A DNA stretch of 64,000 nucleotides from Acidobacteriota bacterium (lineage in GTDB: Bacteria > Acidobacteriota > Terriglobia > Terriglobales > Acidobacteriaceae): positions 62,001-126,000 of the forward strand of contig JAJYVU010000001.1 in NCBI GenBank assembly GCA_021791875.1. Direction: 5' to 3'. This document shows, piece by piece, positions 28,798 through 30,998 of this stretch (positions are counted from its first letter, which is position 1; each line of letters begins with the position of its first letter). The position numbers were made by a program, and so were the translations under genes. The notes beneath the pieces are model-generated. The model worked only from the letters and a program-made list of their open reading frames with translations, searched no databases and was not told where the DNA came from.

Positions 28798-28838
28798 ACG
28801 GCCGCGCTTTGCCGATCTAAAGCATTATTGCCGTGAGG

Positions 28839-28870
28839 AAGGGGTTGCGAGGGGTTTCTCGCAACCCCTT
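28839..28870 (+). terminator. Terminator of the YtxH gene
   Basis: A perfect 13-bp stem, AAGGGGTTGCGAG (28839-28851) with CTCGCAACCCCTT (28858-28870), followed by TTGGTTTG. Confidence 0.85.
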
Positions 28871-28916
28871 TTGGTTTGTCTGGCTGCGCGGATGCGGCGG
28901 GTTGTTTAGGACCGAT

Positions 28917-28954
28917 GTATACGCCGTATACTTTATATGGTATACATCGTATAC
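28917..28954. promoter_or_regulatory. Tandem operator GTATAC-N3-GTATAC
   Basis: Four GTATAC hexamers form two 15-bp modules, GTATAC-GCC-GTATAC (28917-28931) and GTATAC-ATC-GTATAC (28940-28954). Their centres are 23 bp apart, about two helical turns. They cover a TATACT -10-like hexamer (28927-28932) and the first codons of the TetR gene. This is most simply an autoregulatory operator for that repressor. Confidence 0.75.
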
Positions 28955-29536
28955 GTGAAGAGATTGTCCACTTGCGGGAAGATCGTTTCTGCCGCCCAAA
29001 GACTGCTGGACCGCCAAGGGGCGGAAGCTGTGACGATGCGGCGCGTGGCAGCGGCTGTGGGCGTGACTCCAATGGCACTCTATCGCCATTTTGAGGACCG
29101 CGATGCCTTGCTAAATACGCTGGCGGATGCCGGATTTGAGGAACTGGCGCGGCGCGTGGGCGCGCTTGATTTGCCGGAAGATCCTGAGAAGCAACTGAGG
29201 CGAATTCTGGATGTGTTTCTGGATTTTGCGCTGGAGCAGCCACACCTCTTCGAGCTGATGTTTTTGCACAAACGGGCTGGGGCGCGGCAGTTTCCGGGCG
29301 ATTTTCGTACGGGGAAGTCACCGACGGCGAAGTTTGCCGCGGCGGCATTGGAAGCGGGCATGAAGCGGGGGATATTTCAACGCGACGACGTGTGGGAGAT
29401 CACGTTTGAGGTCGGCGCGCTATTGCAGGGGCTGGTGATGCTGTATCAGGGAGGGCGCGTGGGAGTTTCGGAAGCGGAATTTCGCGCCTTGTGCCATGGG
29501 GCATTTGGAAGGTATCTCAATGGGATCCGTCGATAG
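28937..29536 (+). CDS. TetR-family transcriptional regulator
   Basis: The 199-residue protein has an N-terminal helix-turn-helix domain (VTMRRVAAAVGVTPMALYRHFEDRDALL) and an all-helical ligand domain ending near residue 195. The ATG at 28937 lies inside the operator repeats. A GTG at 28955 gives a start nearer to the normal length of the DNA-binding domain. Neither has a ribosome site, so a leaderless transcript is possible. It overlaps the following lnt-like gene by 17 bp and likely controls it together with itself. The inducer is unknown. Confidence 0.85.
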   Translation: MVYIVYVKRLSTCGKIVSAAQRLLDRQGAEAVTMRRVAAAVGVTPMALYRHFEDRDALLNTLADAGFEELARRVGALDLPEDPEKQLRRILDVFLDFALEQPHLFELMFLHKRAGARQFPGDFRTGKSPTAKFAAAALEAGMKRGIFQRDDVWEITFEVGALLQGLVMLYQGGRVGVSEAEFRALCHGAFGRYLNGIRR

Positions 29537-30998
29537 GTTTCGCCGCGGGTTGGTGGCGCTGGCGGTGTTTGCATCGACGGCGTTGATGCTGTTTTACGGC
29601 GATGGACTGATGCCGCTTTGGCCGCTGATGTGGCTGGCTCCGGTGCCGGTGCTTTGGTTTGCGCTTAGCAAACCGGCGTGGCAGGCGGGAGTGATGGCTG
29701 GGGCTGTGTGGATGGCCGGTGCATTGAACCTTTGGTCCTATCTGCACATTCTTCACGCGCCGCGGATACTGTGGTTTTTAGATTTTGGGCTGGAAGCTGT
29801 TGCGTTTTCCGCAGGCGTGCTGTTGATGAGGACACTGGAGCGGCGCGAGGAGATATGGAGTGCGTGGATTGCGCTGCCTGCCGTGTGGGTGACGTTCGAA
29901 TTTGTGCGCAATCTGCTTTGGACCAACGGTTCCGCGGGATGCGTTGCGTATTCGCAGTTGAATTTCTTGCCGTTTCTGCAGTTCGCCTCCGTGGCGGGAC
30001 CGTGGGGGATGGGATTTGTGCTGATGCTGTTTCCTGCCGGGCTGGCGCTAGCGATGCATCGTTGGGGATCGGCGCGGCGGCAGGCAGTGTGTGTGCTGGG
30101 GGCGACCACGGGCATAGTGGCCGCAGTTTTGATTTTCGGGGCCGCGCGGATGGAGATTCCGCAGCCGGGGCCCAGCGTGAAGGTGGGGCTGATTGCCTCA
30201 GATGCCAATGGAGGCGCCTCGATCGACGAGCCGGGAGCCTCGACGCAGCACTTATTTGAGCACTACGCTGAACGGGCGCGGGAACTGATTGCGCGGGGAG
30301 CCCGGGCGGTAGTGATGCCCGAGGACATGGGACTCGTTCCCGATGCCGATGTAGCAAAGGTCGGCGCGATTTTTCAGCCGATTGCGGATCACTCCGGCGC
30401 GGTACTGGTGGTGGGTATGGCGCGCATGGGGGCGACAGGGCGGCACAATGAGGCGCGTATCTATACGCCGGATGGCGCGGTGCGCACCTACTACAAAGAA
30501 CATCTGCTGCCGCCGTTCGAGACCAGCCATTTTGCGCCGGGGAAAAAACAGACAAAATTTACCGCGCCGGGCAGCGCTGGCGAGCAAGCCTGGGGCGCGG
30601 CGATCTGCAAAGACATGGACTTTACGAATCCGTCGCGCTCTTATGGACGAGCGGGCGTGGGGCTGATGCTGGTGCCGGCGTGGGATTTTCGGGTGGACGG
30701 GTTGTGGCACGGGCACATTGCGGTGATGCGGGCGGTGGAAGACGGGTTCAGCTTGGCGCGGAGTGCGCGGGATGGATTGCTGACCGTGGCGGATGATCGC
30801 GGAAGAATCGTTGCGGAAACGGCGAGTAGCAGTGCGCCGTTTGCCACACTGGTCGCCGAGGTCCCGACGGGGCACAGTGAGACGGTGTTTCTGCTGTTGG
30901 GGAATTGGTTCGGTTGGCTCTCGATTGTGATAGCGGGGTTTGCAGTCGTGGAGGCGGTGAGGCTTCAGCGGCGATCGGACCCTGAAAGAACCGCATAG
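29520..30998 (+). CDS. lnt: Apolipoprotein N-acyltransferase-like membrane protein
   Basis: The 492-residue protein has about six N-terminal membrane helices (residues 10-205), then a nitrilase-fold periplasmic domain with the catalytic triad Glu-268 (VMPEDMG), Lys-326 (YYKEHLLP) and Cys-363 (AICKDMD), and a last helix near 470. Lnt transfers the third acyl chain to lipoproteins before LolCDE export. Sequence around the triad differs from the classical enzyme, and co-expression with a TetR regulator is unusual, so a specialised paralogue is possible. The ATG at 29520 follows GGAAGG by 7 nt. Confidence 0.8.
   Translation: MGSVDRFRRGLVALAVFASTALMLFYGDGLMPLWPLMWLAPVPVLWFALSKPAWQAGVMAGAVWMAGALNLWSYLHILHAPRILWFLDFGLEAVAFSAGVLLMRTLERREEIWSAWIALPAVWVTFEFVRNLLWTNGSAGCVAYSQLNFLPFLQFASVAGPWGMGFVLMLFPAGLALAMHRWGSARRQAVCVLGATTGIVAAVLIFGAARMEIPQPGPSVKVGLIASDANGGASIDEPGASTQHLFEHYAERARELIARGARAVVMPEDMGLVPDADVAKVGAIFQPIADHSGAVLVVGMARMGATGRHNEARIYTPDGAVRTYYKEHLLPPFETSHFAPGKKQTKFTAPGSAGEQAWGAAICKDMDFTNPSRSYGRAGVGLMLVPAWDFRVDGLWHGHIAVMRAVEDGFSLARSARDGLLTVADDRGRIVAETASSSAPFATLVAEVPTGHSETVFLLLGNWFGWLSIVIAGFAVVEAVRLQRRSDPERTA

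Follow-up and report, generated by a model that had tools for sequence, protein, structure and literature searches.

In the acuR-acuI-dddL operon of R. sphaeroides, the transcript has its 5' end precisely at the AUG of acuR, as mapped by 5' RACE, and in the account given there acuR is less strongly translated than the genes downstream of it, which have Shine-Dalgarno sites (PMC3017554). The tetR gene of Tn1721 is cited in two sources as having a leaderless mRNA (PMC3017554, PMC3293720). Leaderless genes are reported at an average of 13.3% in three Acidobacteria (PMC3160421). In the work described in PMC3850990, neither the mycobacterial nor the Streptomyces second Lnt took the place of the main Lnt. 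In E. coli Lnt, Tyr388 and Glu389 are reported to be essential (PMC5500888, PMC3850990).

The stretch of DNA analysed here, referred to as the window, is 64,000 nucleotides long and comes from an Acidobacteriota bacterium of the family Acidobacteriaceae. It contains a tetR-family repressor gene (28955-29536, + strand) followed by an lnt-like gene (29520-30998, + strand). As in the acuR operon, a TetR-family repressor gene comes first, the operator lies over the promoter region and the downstream gene has a Shine-Dalgarno site; the leaderless start is predicted here (PMC3017554). The acuR operator, as given in that source, is one inverted repeat (TAATAGAC-n6-GTCTATTA), whereas the unit in the window has two GTATAC palindromes, and the acuR promoter has a recognisable -35 and -10, unlike that of the window (PMC3017554). 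AcuR responds to acrylate, and the genes described downstream of acuR are unrelated to the lnt-like gene (PMC3017554). Neither acuI nor dddL is present in the unit, whose downstream gene is lnt-like. The tetR–lnt unit may work like acuR, and by its gene content it is not an acuR operon. Like Tn1721 tetR, the first gene encodes a TetR-class repressor, with an mRNA that is described as leaderless there and predicted to be leaderless here. The regulated gene is co-directional with tetR, overlaps it and is not an efflux gene; the tetA arrangement of Tn1721 differs in these respects.

The lnt-like product shares the membrane-plus-nitrilase architecture of Lnt, BCG_2279c and S. scabies Lnt2 as these are described, and the catalytic Glu, Lys, Glu and Cys are kept (PMC3850990, PMC5500888). 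Like BCG_2279c and S. scabies Lnt2, it is an extra paralogue beside a canonical Lnt. Unlike all three, it belongs to a group of proteins with CKD or CRD in place of CYE, lies behind a TetR gene and scores under the lnt cut-off (PMC3850990, PMC5500888). In its logic, the regulation is a variant of the leaderless autorepression already known for TetR-type repressors, and what is new is the conserved tetR–lnt-like unit. Among the literature matches listed, no description of such a unit is found in titles and abstract openings.

The repressor belongs to the TetR family. Its N-terminal helix-turn-helix matches PF00440 (TetR_N) at 50.6 bits (cut-off 24) and its C-terminal domain matches PF13305 (TetR_C_33) at 41.3 bits (cut-off 26.8). 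The AlphaFold2 model (pLDDT 94.9) has the all-helical TetR fold, with 3on2 as its best PDB match (TM 0.77). The protein is 193 aa long when read from GTG 28955 and 199 aa long when read from ATG 28937.

Upstream of the unit, a strong intrinsic terminator was found by scan at 28837-28872 (+ strand), with a 16-pair stem and then a T-rich tail. The region 28832-28885 folds at -27.6 kcal/mol (z -4.1), and none of 200 shuffled sequences is as stable. The terminator would isolate the tetR unit from the YtxH-like gene that precedes it, which places the expected promoter of the unit in 28873-28955, about 80 bp that hold both palindromes. Operator 1 (28917-28931, GTATACgccGTATAC) and operator 2 (28940-28954, GTATACatcGTATAC) both match GTATAC-N3-GTATAC exactly and start 23 bp apart, just as the earlier note had described them. 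Operator 2 ends immediately 5' of GTG 28955. With up to two mismatches allowed, the two operators are the only matches in the window; shuffled windows contain a mean of 0.31 matches, and 4 of 100 reach two. The earlier note had also proposed a scan of the genome for the full motif. Even the core, TATACNNNGTATA, occurs in the 4.17-Mb genome (sequence 93% complete) at only two places, both of them the operators, and the genome thus has no further core sites that would mark a regulon beyond the tetR–lnt operon.

Homologue searches within the window's family gave a match in 17 of 150 genomes and in 56 of 398 genomes at the limits used. A match better than 1e-20 is present in 43 genomes, including the window's own, and 41 of these are in the counts. 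The main set accordingly contains 41 loci, the window and 40 strong homologues from its family. One of the two genomes outside the counts was read afterwards (G207, locus L176) and has a degenerate second site; the other is cut by a contig end (G052, L177). Three loci from a sister family (L128-L130) are excluded from the 41. The contrast set consists of 13 weakly related TetR loci, whose starts are the most upstream listed codons, so that the upstream interval is less exact there. An operator site was counted when at least 9 of 10 core bases match near the tetR start. The start of L080, which has ATC at the expected place, was set by hand. The TetR alignment holds 39 of the 41 proteins (L080 and L083 are absent). 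The Lnt-like alignment holds 37; L083 and L084 are missing at contig ends, L088 has no full frame at the expected place and L091 has no match.

A palindrome is present at the tetR start in all 41 loci, as compared to 0.44 loci per shuffled set of upstream regions, and 33 loci have two sites. The two operators are most often 23 bp apart (12 loci), followed by 24 bp (8), 22 bp (6) and 21 bp (3), and spacings of 14 (L085), 20, 25 and 32 bp (L074) occur once each. The spacing is 22-24 bp in 26 of the 33 two-site loci. Of the 41 promoters, 31 have a pair at 20-25 bp, which never occurs in 200 shuffled sets (mean 0.000). A chance origin of the operator pair was rejected on the window shuffles, the genome-wide core count and these shuffled promoters. 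The remaining 8 of the 41 loci have a single site.

None of the 13 weakly related TetR loci has a pair at 20-25 bp, and three of them (L096, L098, L100) have sites of at least 9 of 10 further upstream. These GTATAC-type sites lie upstream of TetR genes without an lnt match, and L100 has three overlapping sites. In the 40 homologue-bearing genomes, 31 contain an exact core site, and 35 of the 46 exact sites, sorted by hand, are at the tetR start. It is the position of these sites that stands out and not their number, because these genomes also contain 52 copies of a reversed control pattern. By position and open reading frames, none of the 11 core sites away from the locus in these genomes is convincing as part of a regulon. 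One such sequence, TATACACCGTATA (L140:129-141), stands directly before the ATG of a small protein labelled by eye as MazE/AbrB-like, which is perhaps an autoregulated antitoxin. The same TATACTCAGTATA is found just 5' of an ATG in L144, L145 and L149 with a TTGAC-like stretch before it, and is probably the ordinary promoter of another gene.

The distance from operator 2 to the start codon is also conserved. Counted from the first T of its TATAC, the distance is 14 nt in 24 of the 41 loci and 16 nt in 11. Other loci have 17, 18 (two loci), 19 or 22 nt, and L080 has 53 nt. Six of the eight single-site loci keep the 14-nt distance. Because 35 of the 41 loci have a distance of 14 or 16 nt, GTG 28955 is indicated as the start in the window, and it is probably the true one. 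In one further locus (L170), the annotated ATG follows the operator at a distance of 20 nt and may have a ribosome site, and the pattern fits only the GTG upstream of it. As in the acuR-type arrangement, the repressor gene is without a Shine-Dalgarno site and the downstream gene has one: a Shine-Dalgarno core is found before tetR in 1 of 41 loci and before the lnt-like gene in 34 of 37. The window's own GGAAGG (29507-29512, + strand), which lies inside tetR and by its sequence is the likely ribosome-binding site of the lnt-like gene, is outside these 34 by the strict rule. The comparison thus agrees with the proposal that tetR has no ribosome site, and both this lack and the operator-to-start distance support a probable leaderless mRNA, for which a 5' leader of 0-3 nt is the favoured prediction.

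The most serious alternative, though clearly the less probable one, is that translation begins at ATG 28937 (28937-28939, + strand). Operator 2 would then also be coding (MVYIVYV...). This ATG is in frame, ATG is a better start than GTG, and 11 of the 41 loci have a start codon 18 nt 5' of the chosen one. However, in 20 of the 41 a stop is reached upstream of the chosen start before any other in-frame start codon, and most loci have an ATG or GTG at a fixed distance after operator 2. The TATACT of the window ends 4 nt before ATG 28937. By the usual spacing of a -10 and a start, 4 nt is too short for a leaderless start.

The TetRs nearest to that of the window by identity are those of L128 (70.7%) and L129 (72.3%), from the sister family, and these favour the ATG. 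In the stretch tested, neither locus offers an ATG, GTG or TTG downstream of its last palindrome, and in both the only nearby in-frame ATG lies before that palindrome, at the place of ATG 28937. The last palindrome in these two loci is probably coding (MVYGVYA and MAYGVYA). Their TATACT, read by eye, ends 8 and 7 nt before the ATG, so that a leaderless start is possible there too. Because of these two loci, GTG 28955 is held only as the probable start and ATG 28937 is kept as its rival. L128 has three sites of 9 of 10. The earlier note had placed the start codon within or right after the operator; an in-frame ATG is indeed present at 28937, and most loci point to the GTG directly after operator 2, with L128 and L129 pointing to the place of the ATG.

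A consensus scan finds no sigma-70 promoter for the tetR unit, and the -10 is read from the operators themselves. The left half of operator 2 (TATACA, 28941-28946) is the better candidate and probably the -10. A spacing of 22-24 bp places the left half of operator 1 16-18 bp before the left TATAC of operator 2, as a -35 stands to a -10. In the window, this left half (TATACG, 28918-28923) is 17 bp before TATACA and is a poor -35 (3 of 6). Among the eight single-operator loci, a classical -35 is good-looking only in L071 (TCGACA, 17 bp) and, by eye, in L068 (TTGACC before the right half), and the mean -35 matches have no clear peak at 16-18.

A TG one base before the -10 hexamer is the place of the extended -10 motif. 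Such a TG precedes the left TATAC of operator 2 in 20 of the 41 loci (background 6.4%) and is found at the other half-sites in 2 of 41, 3 of 33 and 0 of 33. It is absent from the other 21 loci, including all eight single-site loci. The 41 loci divide into two clades, named here after residue 44 of TetR, Arg (30 loci, including the window) or His (11 loci). In the His clade, 8 of 9 such TGs, corresponding to 8 of the 11 loci, cannot be part of a start codon because of frame or a stop. In the Arg clade, the argument is confounded because 10 of 11 belong to an ATG, GTG or TTG that is in frame and open (10 of 30 members have an open NTG there). In the window, the TG of the possible extended -10 (TGG-TATACA, 28938-28946, + strand) is also the TG of ATG 28937. 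The evidence for an extended -10 is thus good in the His group, and in the Arg group such an element is only a possibility. A binomial P of 1e-13 for the TG count was discarded, as the TGs of the window's clade are mostly open start codons.

The right half of operator 1 and the base after it form TATACT (28927-28932), the -10-like hexamer that the earlier note had placed under the repressor. It is an improbable -10, from which the mRNA would begin at about 28939 and have a leader of about 16 nt that holds operator 2 as a roadblock, with GTG 28955 as the start codon. TATACT is nearer to TATAAT than TATACA is, and it precedes the ATG in L128 and L129. However, 8 of the 41 loci have no operator 1, and six of these still have the start codon 14 nt from the TATAC of operator 2; the leader would be without a ribosome site; and in 8 of 11 His-clade loci the TG before operator 2 cannot be a start codon. 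The hexamer is present as the earlier note had said, and most of the 41 loci favour a -10 inside operator 2.

The recognition helix of TetR varies together with the operator sequence. Residue 44, encoded by 29084-29086, is Arg in the window and in 30 of the 41 loci and His in 11 (L084-L094). In the Arg44 group, 100 of 104 half-sites have C as the base immediately outside GTATA; the 44 half-sites of the His44 group have G at this position in 28 cases, C in 10 and T in 6. Because the helix residue co-varies with the outer base, the TetR of the window very likely binds both GTATAC palindromes. The Arg/His split is essentially one clade boundary and so reflects one or few events. It is very improbable that another regulator binds the palindromes or that they are a general promoter feature: GTATAC-type sites do occur before other TetR genes (L096, L098, L100) and once before the MazE/AbrB-like gene (L140), but the outer base tracks residue 44, most exact sites in these genomes fall at this locus, and lnt-like genes without this TetR have no sites. 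Among 18 further lnt-like loci of this last kind, none of the 11 with upstream sequence has an operator (at least 9 of 10, -900 to +100), four distant ones are also without it and three are cut by a contig end. Site conservation and the helix/base match both support the proposed autoregulation of tetR through tandem operators that overlap its promoter.

An lnt-like match is present downstream of tetR in 39 of the 41 loci by tblastn. The exceptions are L083, which is cut by the contig end, and L091, which has the TetR and both operators and no lnt match within 5 kb downstream. In L084, the match runs into the contig end. The two genes of the window overlap by 17 bp, in agreement with the overlap that had been pointed out before, and 33 of the 37 loci with a full frame at the expected place have an overlap of this length. 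TetR and Lnt-like protein distances are correlated (r 0.925; 0 of 2000 permutations).

The lnt-like gene of the window encodes 492 aa with LNT_N and CN_hydrolase domains. LNT_N, the Lnt membrane domain, is matched at 46.5 bits (cut-off 27.1, Pfam), and the best match of the Lnt-like profile to Lnt structures has an E of 1.9e-22 (residues 67-511 of 527). The catalytic E267, K335 and C387 and also E343 are each kept in 37 of 37 proteins by alignment. The position of Y388 is K in 33 and R in 4 of the 37, and that of E389 is D in all 37, so the nucleophile motif is CKD or CRD rather than CYE in every protein and CKD in the window. The window gene scores 95.4 bits against TIGR00546 (lnt), below the cut-off of 132.9, and a canonical lnt elsewhere in the genome scores 258.6 bits, above it. 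The window's partner gene encodes an Lnt-like paralogue, a divergent enzyme of the lipoprotein-acylation type. Because of the canonical lnt elsewhere and the altered CKD nucleophile, the suggestion that lipoprotein acylation may be inducible through this operon is a weak one. It is weakened further by the score below the cut-off and by the replacement of two residues essential in E. coli, and we regard acylation of lipoproteins by the product as conceivable but doubtful.

Taken together, the locus is quite likely a self-contained, autorepressed tetR–lnt operon, which is probably leaderless. In the mechanism we infer, a TetR dimer would bind each 15-bp palindrome and keep RNA polymerase off the promoter. 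With GTG 28955 as the start, operator 1 would cover the -35 region, operator 2 would cover the -10 (TATACA) and the transcription start, and the 5' end of the mRNA would lie at or within a few nucleotides of the GTG. Repressor synthesis would be low, since tetR has no Shine-Dalgarno site, and the lnt-like gene would be translated from its own ribosome site inside tetR. A ligand would release TetR and induce both genes. More speculatively, and with little likelihood, the unit may be a portable, ligand-inducible second acyltransferase. TetR would sense an envelope-active compound or lipid and induce a CKD Lnt-type enzyme that takes over from the canonical Lnt when this is under attack or uses another amine as its acyl acceptor, with the operator halves serving as -35 and -10 and the start codon next to or inside the operator. 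The locus would offer a testable cis-regulatory code that combines operator, helix residue, promoter and start codon within about 40 bp. A distinct Lnt-like subfamily emerges from it as a putative regulated accessory enzyme, and the locus is likely an added case of a repressor whose own gene is without a ribosome site and whose partner has one.

The operator and gene layout recurs in dozens of related genomes. The two other sampled genomes of the window's genus contain neither gene at the limits used, and the tetR–lnt module is thus patchy. In the order-level search, 35 of 298 genomes have a match. Three of these are in a second family (L128-L130), and all three have operator sites and an lnt-like gene. 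Eight matches in the phylum are outside the window's family. One of them (L132) combines an lnt-like gene with a palindrome, GCGTACAGTGTACGC, that ends at its GTG start. In L131, L137 and L138, GTTAAC-N3-GTTAAC is found at or shortly before the TetR start codon, with no lnt match in the stretch fetched. As read from their sequences, these TetR genes have the same layout with another putative operator sequence.

Related genes are also found on plasmids and at more distant loci. On a Gemmatirosa plasmid, a site immediately precedes the ATG of a TetR gene that has no lnt match in its vicinity. A Phyllobacterium plasmid carries a tetR gene and an lnt-like gene that overlap, with a perfect GTATACAGTGTATAC upstream of the two. 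In L165 and L166, distant lnt-like genes follow a different TetR, and two 6-3-6 palindromes (GAACG...GTTC type), 19 bp apart, lie beside the ATG. Lnt-like genes of the CKD type with no neighbouring TetR in the gene tables are present on plasmids of Blastomonas, an Erythrobacteraceae bacterium and Spirosoma (L171-L173). The plasmid records name the Lnt-like genes nitrilase-related carbon-nitrogen hydrolase or, among L171-L173, hypothetical protein.
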